A stretch of 64,000 nucleotides of DNA from NCBI GenBank assembly GCA_019239895.1, contig JAFAZH010000006.1:124001-188000 (forward strand), written 5' to 3'. The notes under the pieces were generated by a model. The model was not told the origin of the DNA, did not search any database, and saw nothing but the letters and a program-made list of their open reading frames with translations. Both the position numbers and the translations under genes were made by a program. Shown here one piece after another: positions 51,260-59,511 of the stretch. The stretch comes from Abditibacteriaceae bacterium (GTDB lineage Bacteria > Armatimonadota > Abditibacteriia > Abditibacteriales > Abditibacteriaceae). Position 1 is the first letter of the stretch. Each line of letters starts with the position of its first letter.

Positions 51260-52345
51260 TTAGCGGACAAGTGGTAACGGCGGTTCGCCAGATGGCGGTT
51301 CACCAGATGGTGCGGGAATGTCCTGGTCTACAGGCAAGGGCAAGCCAAAGTTCGGGGTGCCGTCCGGGTTCCAAGTGAAGCGTTGCGCCCGCGTGGAGCG
51401 GTCGGCGTAGGTATCGGCAGTGCCGGACTTGGCATGGTAAACAATCCAGTCTTCTTTGCCATCTGGGGATTGAAAGAAGAAGTTATGTCCCGGCCCAAAG
51501 ACGCCATATTGATCTACCCGTGCGAAAACAGGCTGGGGGTATTGTTGCCAGGAAGCGAAGTTGAGCAGGTCGCTGTGTATATCCGCACTGAGCATTCCCA
51601 GCTTATAGTCAGGGGTAGATGCGCCACAGGATGAGTAGATGAGAAACACCTTGCCGTTGCGTTGCAGCGTCTCTGGCCCCTCGCGCACGACGTTGCAGCC
51701 AAAACCATCAGCAGGCAAGTAAACACGCGGGCCGGTCAGTGTCCACGGGTTGGTCATGCGTGAAATATAAAGCCCCTGACCTGTGGGGCTGGGACGACCA
51801 CACCAGATAAAGTAGAGGGAGCCATCCGGCAGCTTTAAGACTGTGCCATCTATGGCATAGAATTCGTTGTTAGGATCAGTTAGCAGTTGAGCCTTAAAGG
51901 TGTATGGCCCCATCGGATTGGTGCCTGCGCTCTCGCAGACATATAAGCGATGGTGTTCATCAGGCCCATCGGAGGCAGTGTAATAGAGATACCAATGCAG
52001 GCCATTACCTCCGTTGAGCAGGTGGAATTCCGGTGCCCACATATCCCGGAAGCGGGTAGGGGTACTGTCCTTCCAGACAACTTGATCGGGCGCATCCTTC
52101 AGTTCTCCCAAACGCCGTGCCCGTCGCAAGCGGATGTCTACCGCCGTTGTCGTGGAGAGATAATACCAGCCGTTGTAATAAGTCAACCAAGGGTCGGCTC
52201 CTTCTAACTTGAGAGGGTTGCGGAAGGTAGAATTCACGGTAGTGCGAATAGCAGGCTGCCCCTGTGCGAAAATAGGTCTGGTGATTGAGGATAACCCAAC
52301 TAATAGAAGAGTAATATTCAACAAAAAACGCCAGAAACGCGGCAT
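51260..52345 (-). CDS. exported GH43-family glycosidase
   Basis: Five-bladed propeller glycosidase. The 361 aa start with a signal peptide (LLNITLLLVGLSSITRPIFA). The catalytic trio is complete: Asp51 in EGADPWLTY, Asp166 in AIDGTVLKL and Glu222 in VREGPETL. Other motifs are DMWAPEFHLL and GPGHNFFFQSPDG. Likely an arabinosidase, xylosidase or related exo-enzyme in the periplasm or outside. The C-terminal tail has a 15-bp duplication giving SGEPPSGEPP. CAGGAG precedes the ATG. It ends 13 bases from the convergent GH2-like gene. Confidence 0.9.
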   Translation of the reverse strand: MPRFWRFLLNITLLLVGLSSITRPIFAQGQPAIRTTVNSTFRNPLKLEGADPWLTYYNGWYYLSTTTAVDIRLRRARRLGELKDAPDQVVWKDSTPTRFRDMWAPEFHLLNGGNGLHWYLYYTASDGPDEHHRLYVCESAGTNPMGPYTFKAQLLTDPNNEFYAIDGTVLKLPDGSLYFIWCGRPSPTGQGLYISRMTNPWTLTGPRVYLPADGFGCNVVREGPETLQRNGKVFLIYSSCGASTPDYKLGMLSADIHSDLLNFASWQQYPQPVFARVDQYGVFGPGHNFFFQSPDGKEDWIVYHAKSGTADTYADRSTRAQRFTWNPDGTPNFGLPLPVDQDIPAPSGEPPSGEPPLPLVR

Positions 52346-52398: not shown

Positions 52399-53418
52399 TT
52401 ATTTCGGACGACTTGCCTGCCGCGCTGCTTCGGGGTCATTAGCCGAATCATGCCCCGCGAAGAGAATAGACCAACGTAGCGCCAGCCCACCCAACAGCGT
52501 ACTCATGTCAGCGATGATTTTAATCCAGCGCCGTACTTTACCGCCTACGGGAAGCCGCTCTAATAGTTCAGGTAGCATAAAGCCGCCGCCCACTGTGCCT
52601 CCCCACAGATGCGGCGCGAATTTGCCCTTTGTCAGTGGCTCGTTCAGTTCACCACAGGATACCAGATAGCCACTTAACATGGCACCTTCGACCACGCGCG
52701 CGGTGGTCTCCACCTTCTGGAGAGCGTCTTTGGCGGGACTCTTTGCTTCTGAGGTTGCTTCTAACGCCAGGCTGATGGCAGCCGCCCCGGTGCTCATGGC
52801 ACTGGATATAAAGAGTGGCCCCAACCAGCGATTGCGTGACCACACTGGTGTAGCTGTAGCACTGAGTAGAATCCCGGTGTAGCTGCCGAGCAGCAGCATC
52901 AGGGGCAACCCGACTATATCACTAATATTGATAGCTCCATCGGCTACCCGTACAGCCTCGGTGGGTAAATCCTCCTGTTTGCTGTCTAAGACTTCCCGGA
53001 CTGTCGCCAAGCCAATGAGGGCGCTACAGGCGGTAAGTACCCAACTCCCCAGGTTCATGGGCGACTTGGGCTTGAACACACGCAGCATGTGGTGAAAGCG
53101 TTTAGGATCACCCAGGTCTTTTATTAAGAGGGGCGAGCAGGGGATAGCGGCCACTGCCGCAATCGCCGTGCCTGCCCGTGTGATCTCGCGGTAATCTTCG
53201 CCGCCAAAGCGTTCGGCCAGGCGTCCCAGAATATAAGCACCCGAAGCCAGGCCACCCAGAAAAAAGTAAGTAGCAATCTCCCACTGCCATACGGGGGGCT
53301 TTAGCATAGGCACATCATAATAAGATGCTTCTTGTCCACTGCTATCCGCAGAATTCTTGCCACCCTTGCCTGCTTGCTCGTCAGGAGACTGGCGTCGGTT
53401 GTCGGTATCACCGGGCAT
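52399..53418 (-). CDS. NrfD-like membrane subunit of formate dehydrogenase
   Basis: The 339 aa form a polytopic quinone-reactive membrane subunit of the NrfD/PsrC type: a hydrophilic N-terminus (to about residue 40), then WQWEIATYFFLGGLASGAY, a conserved loop DLGDPKRFHHMLRVFKPKSPMNLGSW, and further hydrophobic segments (ADGAINISDIVGLPLMLLLG, GPLFISSAMSTGAAAISL). Its start overlaps the end of the ferredoxin-type subunit by 11 bases, with AAAGGAG before the ATG. In this operon it would pass electrons from formate to quinone without a cytochrome b. Confidence 0.88.
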   Translation of the reverse strand: MPGDTDNRRQSPDEQAGKGGKNSADSSGQEASYYDVPMLKPPVWQWEIATYFFLGGLASGAYILGRLAERFGGEDYREITRAGTAIAAVAAIPCSPLLIKDLGDPKRFHHMLRVFKPKSPMNLGSWVLTACSALIGLATVREVLDSKQEDLPTEAVRVADGAINISDIVGLPLMLLLGSYTGILLSATATPVWSRNRWLGPLFISSAMSTGAAAISLALEATSEAKSPAKDALQKVETTARVVEGAMLSGYLVSCGELNEPLTKGKFAPHLWGGTVGGGFMLPELLERLPVGGKVRRWIKIIADMSTLLGGLALRWSILFAGHDSANDPEAARQASRPK

Positions 53419-54265
53419 AGTTATCTCCTTTGCTGAAGAAAAGGGCCGATAAAAGCATCAGCACGAGGCCGGTCAAAAGGCTGAGGGCGTAGCGGGTTTC
53501 CTGGCCGTGGAGCGGCTGGGGCGGCGCTTCCGGTAAGTTGTATTCGTTGGGATGGTCTTCCAGCAGGAAGAAAGAGTTTAATCGCCCATAGCCATCGAGC
53601 GAGTCGGCTCCATACAAATAAGCCTGCGTGTTGCCCTGCGCGTGCAGAGTTTCAACGCGCTGTTTCGCCTTCTCGCGTAGCTCTTCTACCGGGCCAAACT
53701 GAATGGAAGCCGTGGGGCACGATTTAGCACAGGCGGGTTGCATCCCATCAGTTTGGCGATCATAGCAAAGGGTGCATTTGTGGGCACGACCATCTTCCGG
53801 GCTGCGGCCCAAGACTCCAAACGGGCAGGCACTGATGCAATAGCCGCAACCGTTGCAAATATCGGGCTGCACATACACGTCGCCAAACTCGTTGTAAATA
53901 ATTGAGCCAGTCGGACACGATTGTTGACAGGGGGCATCCTCACAATGCTTGCACACATCGCTCATCATCAACCAGCGACTCTTTTCACCGCCGATCTTCT
54001 CTTTGAAAGCGACATGTCGCCAAGTCGTTTCCGAAAGCATCCGCGTATTGTCATAGGAATGGCCGGTAAAGTTAAAGCCATCAGAAGGCAATTGGTTCCA
54101 CTGCTTACAGGCCACCTCGCAGGCTTTGCAGCCGATGCAAACTGAGGTATCCGTAAAAAAACCCATGAGCGGCTGAGTGTCGGAACCGGGGCTGGGCACT
54201 GGTGTCTGGCGCGGCGGAAAGGCATTCGATAATTCATTCAGCACTGGCAATTGCTGTAGGATCAT
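53408..54265 (-). CDS. fdhB: formate dehydrogenase iron-sulfur subunit
   Basis: Electron-transfer subunit with four [4Fe-4S] clusters over 285 aa. The cysteine motifs in order are CIGCKACEVACKQW, CKHCEDAPCQQSCPTGSI, CNGCGYCISACPFGV and KCTLCYDRQ...CAKSCPTASI. The C-terminus has one membrane helix (YALSLLTGLVLMLLSALFF), as in FdnH. ATG 54265 follows AGGAGTAACGC. The gene is 184 bases after fdhA, a gap that contains an inverted repeat, and overlaps the next membrane subunit gene. It wires the catalytic subunit to the quinone-reactive NrfD-like protein. Confidence 0.94.
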   Translation of the reverse strand: MILQQLPVLNELSNAFPPRQTPVPSPGSDTQPLMGFFTDTSVCIGCKACEVACKQWNQLPSDGFNFTGHSYDNTRMLSETTWRHVAFKEKIGGEKSRWLMMSDVCKHCEDAPCQQSCPTGSIIYNEFGDVYVQPDICNGCGYCISACPFGVLGRSPEDGRAHKCTLCYDRQTDGMQPACAKSCPTASIQFGPVEELREKAKQRVETLHAQGNTQAYLYGADSLDGYGRLNSFFLLEDHPNEYNLPEAPPQPLHGQETRYALSLLTGLVLMLLSALFFSKGDNYAR

Positions 54266-54449: not shown

Positions 54450-57400
54450 CTACTTCAAATGTCCTTCCGGCTGCGCCGATTTGGGCGTATCCGGGCTGTC
54501 TTCGCGGGTCGGCCAGGGCGCGACCTTTTTGGTTGGTTGTGCTGGAGTGCCGGTGCGTCCGGGGCGCACCTCGCAAACAAAGGCTTTACCCTCGTGCATA
54601 CTCACGTTGGGATCAGCCGTGAGCGAGGTTAAGTCATTGGCATTCCCGCCCACCGTTTCCCCGGCAAAAGCCCAGTGAAAAGGTAGCCCAATCTGGTGAA
54701 CGATACGGCCATCAATGGTTAATGGCTTAATGCGCCGCGTCACCATCGCCCGCGCTTCAATGGAGCCGCGCGGTGAGGAGATGGTCATCCAGCCGCCATG
54801 CTCAATTCCTCTTTCCTCCGCCAGTTCAGGACTCAGTTCCGCAAACATTTCCGGTTGCAACTCGTTGAGCCAGCTATTGAAGCGACTCATTGGGCCACTC
54901 AGGTAATGCTCTGTTAAACGGAAAGTGGTGGCTACGATGGGATACTCACTTTCTGGCGTATGCGCGATAGGATTGAGCGGCCCCTCGAAGTAGCGCGTGG
55001 TGGGGCTGGCCTGGTACTTGGGATACAGCAGGTTGCGCACGGGAGATTCCCCAGCCTCGTAATGCGCCGGGAACGGGCCATCTTTAGTGCCGCCGGGGGC
55101 AAACAGCCAGGCGCGGCCATCCGGCTTCATAATAAATGGCTCGGCCCCTGAAATGGCATCCATACCTTTGCAATCGGGAGCCGGACGATAGCTCGGTGGC
55201 TTATCCGGCTCAAAGTCCGGCTCATCGTTGCCCACCCATTTTTTCTTCTCTTCATCCCACCAGATATACTTCTTGCGCTCCGACCAGGGTCGCCCCTGCG
55301 GGTCAGCACTGGCCCGGTTATACATCATGCGCCGGTTATGTGGCCAGGCGAAGCCCCACTCTGGTTGCACCGGGTTATCGGTGATCTTGCGCTCGCGGGC
55401 ACGGTTGCGATCCGGTTCGGGGAAGACGCCGCTGTAAATCCAGCAGCCGCAAGCCGTCGAACCATCCTCCTTACACTCCGAGAAGCCACTGAGCAACTTG
55501 GGTTTGCCAGTGCGTGAGTCAATTTCCTTCAAGTTATAACCGTTAATTTCCTGTAACACTTTGGAGGCATTCGGCTCACCTTCAATACGGCTCAGCGAGC
55601 CATCCGGCAGACGTGGCGGCTCGTCATGATCGTAGTCCCAGGTCAGATGCTTAATGGGATCATCTTTGGGATCAGTGGAATCGGCATACAGTTGCTTAAT
55701 GCGCTTGCCCAGATTGTAGACAAACCATAGGTCAGAGCGGCAGTCGCCTTCGGGGTCAACGGCTTTATCATGCCATTGCAGCAGGCGTTGGGTATTGGTA
55801 AAAGAGCCTTCTTTAGCGGTGGCCGAGGCTGCCGGGATAAAGAAGACCTCGGTCTTGATTTCCGATGACGGCGGCGCGGTGGGATCATTCTTCCAGAAAA
55901 CAGCACTTTCGGTCTCGAACCAGTCGGCTACTACCAGCCAGTCGAGGTTGCGCAGTCCGGCGCGGTGCAGGCGGGCGTTCGGACCACCCCCACCAGGGTT
56001 CTGCCCGAAAAGGAAGTAACCTTTCACTTCGCCTTTCGCCATCTTGTTGAAGAACAGTAATTGAGAATAGTCGTCATCAATGCGTGGCAGCCAGCTAAAG
56101 CAGAAATCGTTCTCTGGTGTGGCCGCCTCACCATACCAGGCTTTCAAAAGGCTGACGATAAACTTACGGAAGTTCGCCCAGTAGCCAGTCGGCATTCCTT
56201 CATACTTCACATAGGAAGCCAAATCTTCATGCCCTTTATCGGCTGCCGGTTGCGGGAGATAACCCGGCAAGAGATCATAAAGCGTCGGCACATCCGTCGA
56301 ACCTTGAATACTGGCATGGCCGCGCATCGCCATAATGCCACCGCCGGGGCGTCCCATATTACCTAAGAGCATTTGCAGAATGCCTGCGGCGCGAATAATC
56401 TGCACCCCTGTAGTGTGCTGTGTCCAGCCCACGGCATAGACCAGTGCGGTGGTGCGCTCCGGCCCGGAATTGTCACAGAGTAGTTGGGCCACTTCTAAGA
56501 ATTGTTCAACCGTGCAGCCACAGGTTTGAGTCACCATTTCGGGGGTGTAACGCGCATAGTGGCGTCGCAGGTATTGCATGGCGCAACGCGGGTCTTGCAA
56601 TGTTGGGTCACGCGGCGGTTGTCCAGCGGGAGCAGCAGTTGATTCGCTCTGCGGCGTCGAATGGCTACTGGCTCCACCCATCAGGCCATAACCATGCACG
56701 CCTTTGCTGCCCTGCTGGGATTTTTGCTCACCGCCTTCAGCGGCACCCCCTGCGCCTTCTACTCCCTGATCTTGCTTTGGTTTGTCGCCGCCTGCACCCT
56801 CGTAGCCCCAGTGACCTTTAGAAGCGTCATATTCTTGCTTTTGAGGATCATAGCCACTAAATACACCTTCTAATTCCTCGGTGTCCTGAAAACCCTCTGC
56901 AACAATGGTGGAAGCGTTGGTATAGGCTAAGACGTAGTCTTTGAACCATTTTTCATTGGTGAGGACATAATTAATGAGGCCGCCCAGAAAAGCAATGTCA
57001 CTGCCAGCGCGGATGCCCACGAACAAATCGCACAAGGCCGAGGTGCGGGTAAAGCGGGGGTCAACATGAATCAGCTTGGCTCCCTTTTCTTTAGCCTTCA
57101 TGGGCCAGCGGAAGCCGACCGGATGGGCCTCGGCCATGTTGGAACCCATGATGAGAATACAATCGCTGTTGGCTAAGTCCTGCTGGAAAGAAGTGGCCGC
57201 GCCGCGACCAAAAGAAGCGCCCAGACCGGGCACCGATGCGCTATGTCATATACGTGCCTGGTTCTCGATAGAGACGATGCCCAGGCCCCCGGATAACAAC
57301 TTCTTTATCAGATAATTCTCTTCGTTATCTAGGGTGGCACCACCTAAGCTGCCCATATTCTGCACCGCATTCAAGCGCAAGCCGTCTTCGCTCTTCGCTT

Positions 57401-57815
57401 TGAAACCTTCCTCGCGGGTTTCCTTGACACGTTGGGCAATCCGCTCTAAAGCCCAATCGAGCGATTTGGTTTCCCAATGGTCAGAGTAAGGCGCACGGTA
57501 CATCACGTTCTTGACACGATGGGGGTTGACCGCTAACTGAAAGCTGTTGGCCCCCTTGGGGCAAAGTGTCCCTTCGTTAATGGGGCTACGAGGGTTGCCT
57601 TCAATATCAATGATTTTGCCGCCCTTGGTATAAATGTTTAGCCCACACCCCACGGCACAATAGGGGCACACGCTTTCCGTAACAGTGGCTCCCTCAAGGC
57701 GCGAGCCTTTATGCAGAGTTTGTTCACTGTAGGGTTGGGGTGGGCGCGGCCCGGCACCGTGCAGGGTGTTATTCTTGGCATTCTGACTGGCGGAAAATAA
57801 CGGCAACTTAATCAT
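54450..57815 (-). CDS. fdhA: selenocysteine-containing formate dehydrogenase catalytic subunit
   Basis: Mo/W-bis-MGD enzyme that oxidises formate to CO2. 1121 residues result when the in-frame TGA at 57246-57248 is read as Sec190: the context NQARI-U-H is that of E. coli FdnG and the frame resumes with PGLGASFGRGA. An N-terminal [4Fe-4S] site (CPYCAVGCGL...TLCPKG, near 50-87) and the motifs SNMAEAHPVGFRW and LFGQNPGGGGPNARL match FdnG. The start ATG 57815 has CAGGAG, and there is no twin-arginine signal. A Gly/Gln/Ser-rich insert of about 60 residues lies near 340-402. Reading it as two separate genes or a pseudogene is unlikely because conservation continues across the TGA. Confidence 0.95.
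57205..57248 (-). promoter_or_regulatory. selenocysteine UGA codon and bacterial SECIS hairpin
   Basis: On the minus strand UGA (57248-57246) is followed after 12 bases by GUGCCC (57233-57228), loop GGUCU, and GGGCGC (57222-57217), a 6-bp stem with one G-U pair. Loop and spacing match the E. coli fdhF/fdnG SECIS, whose apical GGUCU binds SelB. Confidence 0.9.
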
Positions 57816-58080: not shown

Positions 58081-59511
58081 ATGCCCTGTCTCCTAAAATC
58101 GAAATATCACCAAAAGACAACGAGACTGCTTCCCGCTTTTAAACTGATGCTGTTAGTATTACCGTTGTTGCTTGCTGCTGAAGCTCACGCTACAACTTAC
58201 GCGACCTGGCTTATGGTCTGGAACGGTCATACTGAAAAGTGGTGGAAACCTACCGACTATGAAGGTGCCAGGGTATATGTTGGAGGCACCTGGAAAGCGA
58301 TAGATTGGGCCGATAACAGCCAGATTAATGAATATCTCGACAACTGCAAAAAGGCGGGCATCCAGTTAGTTATTGTGGATTTAACTAATGGCTGGGGTTG
58401 GCTCAATACCAGGTCCCAGTATATGCAGAGCCTCTGCGCTCAGAAGGGTCTTAAATTCTGTGTGGCAGAAAATAGCCTGGGCAATGCCGCCACTTTCGAG
58501 ACTCACGCACAGGACATCTGGAACAACTTCGCTGGCCCGACCGCGCCCCATGCCCCAACTTATGTTACAGACGGCGGTAAATCGCTCATTGTTTGCTATA
58601 GCACGCGGGAATGGTTCCATACCATTAACAGCAGCCCAGGGCCGTGGCGCAGCAAGTTTAAGGTGGTATGGGCTTCAGGCGAAGACTCGGACGCGAACAA
58701 ATGGGGTTGGCAGCTTGAACCCTGGATCGGCAGCGTGCCCTCGCCAGAAGCCATGTTTGTGACCTCTGCCATCAAATGGAACTCTACAGATGAGACCATG
58801 TGGCGTAAGTCGTTGGCCTGGCTGGACTACAACTTCGCCTTAGCCAAAAGTAAATCCCCGGCTTACATAATTGTCGGTTCTTACGATGACATTCATGAAC
58901 GCAACAGTTGGCTGGTGGCTGATACGGCTAACTGCATTCCTGGTTGCCAGATGCGGGATCAAGCTGGAGCCATTAGCACCACCGCCTATTACCAGCGGGT
59001 GCAGCAATGGATTGCTGGTACGCCACCTAGCGTTCCCGGTGGCTACCTGCGCGATGGCGCTTACCGTGTCCTGAATCGCAACAGCGGCAAAGCCCTGAGC
59101 TTCCTGCCTACTGATTCGACTAAGCCCACCAATGGCTCAAACGCGACTGTGGGATCGAAATTGGTGCAAGCTGCACCTTCTAACGCTTTTTACAATTATT
59201 TTTGGTTCTATCACCTGGGCCACAATCAATATAAAATCATGCCCCTGCATAGCGGACTGGCACTGGAAGCACCGAACGGAGATTCGCACGATGGACTTCA
59301 AATAGACCAGGGATGGAATACGACAGATGCATGGCAACGGTGGACAGTGCAGCGCGTGCGGGGCAGTTGGTATCGTATTCAGAACGAAGCGACTGGTAAA
59401 GTGCTGGAAGTTAGTGGCGCGTTGAGAGGCGATGGGGCGGCTGTCGTGCAAGGACTCAAAAATAAAAATACGAATCAGCAATGGCGCTTCGAGCGAATCG
59501 TTGGCCTCTGA
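58081..59511 (+). CDS. exported protein with unrecognised N-terminal domain and C-terminal ricin-type lectin
   Basis: The 476 aa start with a signal peptide (LPAFKLMLLVLPLLLAAEAHA). The first about 320 residues look like a TIM-barrel glycoside-hydrolase-type domain (WLMVWNGHTEKWW, IQLVIVDLTNGWGW, KFCVAENSLGNAA, KSLIVCYSTREWF, KVVWASGEDSD, AYIIVGSYDDIHERNSW) that I cannot place in a numbered family. Residues about 330-476 form a beta-trefoil RICIN lectin with Q-W repeats (AWQRWTVQRV, NTNQQWRFERI). It is probably a secreted polysaccharide-binding or hydrolysing enzyme. Convergent with the GH42-like gene 38 bases away. The 265 bases before it separate it from the divergent fdh genes. Confidence 0.8.
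   Translation: MPCLLKSKYHQKTTRLLPAFKLMLLVLPLLLAAEAHATTYATWLMVWNGHTEKWWKPTDYEGARVYVGGTWKAIDWADNSQINEYLDNCKKAGIQLVIVDLTNGWGWLNTRSQYMQSLCAQKGLKFCVAENSLGNAATFETHAQDIWNNFAGPTAPHAPTYVTDGGKSLIVCYSTREWFHTINSSPGPWRSKFKVVWASGEDSDANKWGWQLEPWIGSVPSPEAMFVTSAIKWNSTDETMWRKSLAWLDYNFALAKSKSPAYIIVGSYDDIHERNSWLVADTANCIPGCQMRDQAGAISTTAYYQRVQQWIAGTPPSVPGGYLRDGAYRVLNRNSGKALSFLPTDSTKPTNGSNATVGSKLVQAAPSNAFYNYFWFYHLGHNQYKIMPLHSGLALEAPNGDSHDGLQIDQGWNTTDAWQRWTVQRVRGSWYRIQNEATGKVLEVSGALRGDGAAVVQGLKNKNTNQQWRFERIVGL

Follow-up and report, generated by a model that had tools for sequence, protein, structure and literature searches.

The TGA codon at positions 57246–57248 (minus strand) of the window, a 64,000-nucleotide stretch of contig JAFAZH010000006.1 from an Abditibacteriaceae bacterium, is almost certainly read as selenocysteine (Sec), in a known arrangement that belongs to the most common family of bacterial selenoproteins. 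We are highly confident that the gene carrying this codon specifies the catalytic subunit of a formate dehydrogenase (FDH) that depends on molybdenum or tungsten, with a predicted Sec at active-site residue 190 and a UGA decoded by way of SelB and a hairpin. Direct sequence support is provided by the codon itself, the hairpin with its covarying stem, the sel genes and the operon, from which we infer Sec insertion at residue 190. By this mechanism, SelB carrying Sec-tRNA(Sec) would bind the hairpin located right after the codon, causing the ribosome to read UGA as Sec. The Sec-tRNA would be made by SelA, and SelD would supply the selenophosphate.

The codon lies in frame between two minus-strand open reading frames (ORFs), 57815–57246 (189 amino acids) and 57233–54450 (927 amino acids). 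An earlier reading of this DNA, made from the letters alone (the sequence-only reading), had proposed that one frame runs through the TGA, and there is indeed a single frame of 1121 codons from 57815 to 54450 in which this TGA is the sole interruption. It had also predicted that automatic annotation would split the gene in two, and an ORF caller using translation table 11 does split it. When read through the TGA, the 1121-residue alpha subunit (54450–57815) exceeds the cut-offs for both the FDH-N alpha model TIGR01553 (1031.6 bits, cut-off 814.2) and the model NF041513 (1506.6 bits, cut-off 1400), and it carries Pfam molybdopterin domains. Both halves align with solved FDHs, and the TGA coincides with the residue denoted X in the FDH alpha chain 1h0h, which is Sec in that enzyme. 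The codon context N-Q-A-R-I-U-H differs by one residue from N-Q-A-R-V-U-H in FdnG of Escherichia coli K-12, and thus the match to FdnG claimed earlier for these flanks holds for the rest of the motif but not for the Ile residue, which is Val in FdnG. Elsewhere in the protein, approximately 50 low-complexity Gly- and Gln-rich residues (window positions 56628–56783, near alpha residues 345–396) are inserted relative to E. coli FdnG. Close relatives also carry this insert, where its length and sequence vary greatly.

The TGA could instead be a true stop codon, or an error of sequencing, in an FDH of the Cys type, or could mark a pseudogene. Homologues with Cys at this position do exist, as TGC is present in an Actinomycetes relative (L067 1371) and in the homologues from two genomes (G060 and G083) that belong to the phylum of the window's organism. 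However, TGA occupies the Sec codon in 49 of the 50 relatives from other assemblies whose sequences cover it, with L067 being the one exception, and both halves of the gene remain open with no other stop. Moreover, the GGTCT loop is absent from the Cys homologues of G060 and G083, and the stem is altered in L067. We therefore judge this explanation to be very improbable, including the misread TGC that the sequence-only reading had raised. The other Sec-type gene from the same phylum (G081) also has TGA at the homologous codon. The L067 gene itself represents a natural Sec-to-Cys replacement inside the Sec clade.

The region 3′ of the TGA has the organization of a bacterial SECIS element (57217–57233, minus strand). 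Twelve nucleotides separate the codon from a 6-bp stem (GUGCCC/GGGCGC) that closes a GGUCU loop at 57227–57223, and the loop begins 18 nucleotides past the TGA. Comparison with E. coli fdnG and fdhF reveals the same spacing in both, which bears out the stem, loop and 12-base spacing described in the sequence-only reading. Published constraints for bacterial SECIS elements call for a loop of 3–9 nucleotides, a stem of 4–16 bp, a G within the first two loop positions, a spacing of 16–37 nucleotides and a minimum free energy of −7.5 or lower (PMC13188914). The corresponding values for this hairpin are 5 nucleotides, 6 bp, GG, 18 nucleotides and −11.9 kcal/mol (for a 38-nucleotide piece), all within these limits. 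The label ‘canonical’ applied to the hairpin earlier is apt in this respect, but the stem lacks the bulged U of E. coli fdhF, and the loop is of the fdhF type (GGUCU) rather than the fdnG type (AGUCU).

A permissive search of 301 bases with the Rfam model SECIS_3 (RF01989) yields an end-to-end match of 32 bits (E = 1.4e-5), which is below the 63-bit gathering score, and nothing in the window reaches an Rfam gathering threshold. The folding energy of the hairpin region is not unusual in itself: 58 of 200 shuffled sequences fold equally well (z = −0.53). Since this single-sequence energy test fails to distinguish the hairpin, the case for a SECIS element rests on comparison.

Stem covariation was assessed on 49 sequences (33 distinct) aligned without gaps. 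Among the stem cells in this alignment, 98.0% are paired, versus 28–56% when the partners are slid. Two of the six base pairs exhibit compensatory changes, with both sides altered in 17 cells, and none of 500 shuffles reaches the observed covariation score. The shuffle control ignores the relatedness of the sequences, whereas the slid-partner control retains it. The loop sequence is also informative. Among the genes whose codon usage was checked, those with a GGTCT loop always have GGT as the loop codon, even though GGT accounts for just 1–22% of their Gly codons. In a few relatives, the loop reads AGTTT or AGTCT in place of GGTCT. The conservation of the TGA, the covariation of the stem and the choice of loop codon among relatives place the predicted feature well beyond chance.

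The sequence-only reading had also predicted that the organism carries selA, selB, selC and selD, and a family-by-family search of the genome (60 contigs totalling 6.65 Mb, 93.7% complete) recovered all four above their cut-offs. The genes for SelA (545.8 bits), SelD (369.2 bits) and tRNA-Sec (selC, 75 bits) form a single selA-selD-selC cluster within 2.6 kb of contig 14, and ARAGORN assigns this tRNA to SeC (anticodon TCA). SelB (341.8 bits) is encoded on contig 23 and possesses the GTPase domain and both C-terminal winged-helix domains. Contig 2 encodes FdhD, a sulfur-transfer protein required by formate dehydrogenases. Given that contig 14 is short (22 kb), contamination was considered as its source. 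This is unlikely because its composition matches that of the genome: its tetranucleotide profile correlates with those of the other stretches compared at r values of 0.92–0.95, with one at 0.81, and comparison with other genomes of the phylum gives 0.55–0.57. The profile of contig 23 likewise matches the rest of the genome.

These genes also bear on the idea that the UGA is read in some other manner, by a UGA-decoding Trp tRNA, under a reassigned genetic code or through plain readthrough. The existence of a tRNA-Sec gene and SelB argues against this idea, as does the fact that neighbouring genes are ordinary full-length frames under table 11. Furthermore, the residue in question aligns with Sec or Cys of solved FDHs, and not with Trp. 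Nothing in the analysis favours any such reading, which we regard as exceedingly improbable, and a SelB-dependent Sec codon is the interpretation that we retain.

The selD gene (1480–2541 of L017; contig 14, 5108–6169) itself contains an in-frame TGA at the catalytic Sec/Cys position, within the context SSCAG-U-ASK, which is the known Sec/Cys site of SelD. The genome therefore encodes a second selenoprotein, for a total of at least two. As a Sec-containing SelD, this protein has nothing unusual about it.

The FDH gene is the first of an operon with the order alpha-beta-NrfD, which is shared by most relatives whose sequence extends far enough. The beta subunit (53408–54265, minus strand) is a 4Fe-4S ferredoxin-like protein (Fer4_11) with one C-terminal hydrophobic helix evident from hydropathy, and it matches TIGR01582 at 189.5 bits, below the cut-off of 334.7. 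The third gene (52399–53418, minus strand) encodes an NrfD-like membrane subunit (PF03916, 115.2 bits, cut-off 25.8), and the operon contains no cytochrome b gamma subunit. By inspection, no twin-arginine signal is present at the N terminus of alpha; the alpha subunits of two Phycisphaerales relatives (L063 and L066) carry one. The system resembles E. coli FdnGHI in its alpha family, Sec location, hairpin spacing and a ferredoxin-like beta subunit whose C-terminal region holds a hydrophobic helix. It differs in using an NrfD membrane subunit where FdnI is a cytochrome b, and in lacking the twin-arginine signal on alpha.

Because alpha is without this signal and is encoded in an alpha-beta-NrfD operon, the enzyme is probably a cytoplasm-facing, quinone-linked FDH built as a membrane-anchored complex, which would oxidize formate and hand the electrons to quinone. 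We infer its location, electron acceptor, metal and reaction direction, with direction and topology proposed by analogy. On the opposite strand upstream of the operon lies a gene (58081–59511) whose product has a ricin-type beta-trefoil lectin domain at its C terminus, and a GH43-family protein is encoded on the other side (51260–52345). A second FDH-like match in the genome (C40) proved to be a different, 697-amino-acid molybdopterin enzyme, whose gene adjoins what appear by eye to be nitrite or sulfite reductase genes.

FDH-N is rare in the phylum, being found in 4 of the 101 genomes sampled; SelA is above its cut-off in 48 of these genomes. Neither SelA nor FDH-N was detected in the two genomes of the same family that were searched. 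In a tree of alpha subunits, the protein from the window groups with Planctomycetota and the Armatimonadetes assembly L068 (set support 97–98), inside a larger mixture of Acidobacteriota, Gemmatimonadota, Binatota and Planctomycetota. The rarity of FDH-N in the phylum, together with this mixing of phyla in the tree, suggests horizontal transfer of the FDH as the simplest reading. Joint transfer of formate dehydrogenase and Sec traits has already been reported (PMC5029168).

Relatives of the NF041513 ‘formate_DH_Act’ type occur in Acidobacteriota, Planctomycetota, Actinomycetota, Binatota and Chloroflexota. Those with roughly 70% identity share the alpha-beta-NrfD order, the TGA and the hairpin, and we found no notable difference from this type. 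In three relatives (L029, L033 and L072) the sel genes adjoin the FDH operon, whereas here they reside on other contigs. A tentative proposal, which we consider possible but doubtful, is that these enzymes constitute a widespread lineage of Sec-dependent, cytoplasm-facing alpha-beta-NrfD FDHs that has spread across phyla, sometimes beside sel genes, and that the operon may carry and keep Sec decoding in lineages otherwise free of Sec.

Among bacterial selenoproteins, formate dehydrogenase and SelD are the two found most widely (PMC5029168, PMC13188914), and the finding is ordinary for this reason. General understanding is unchanged, as both families already appear in published surveys. For this organism, the result amends the annotation of a key enzyme, whose gene is cut in two by a plain ORF caller, and identifies the bacterium as one that uses selenium, in at least two predicted selenoproteins.
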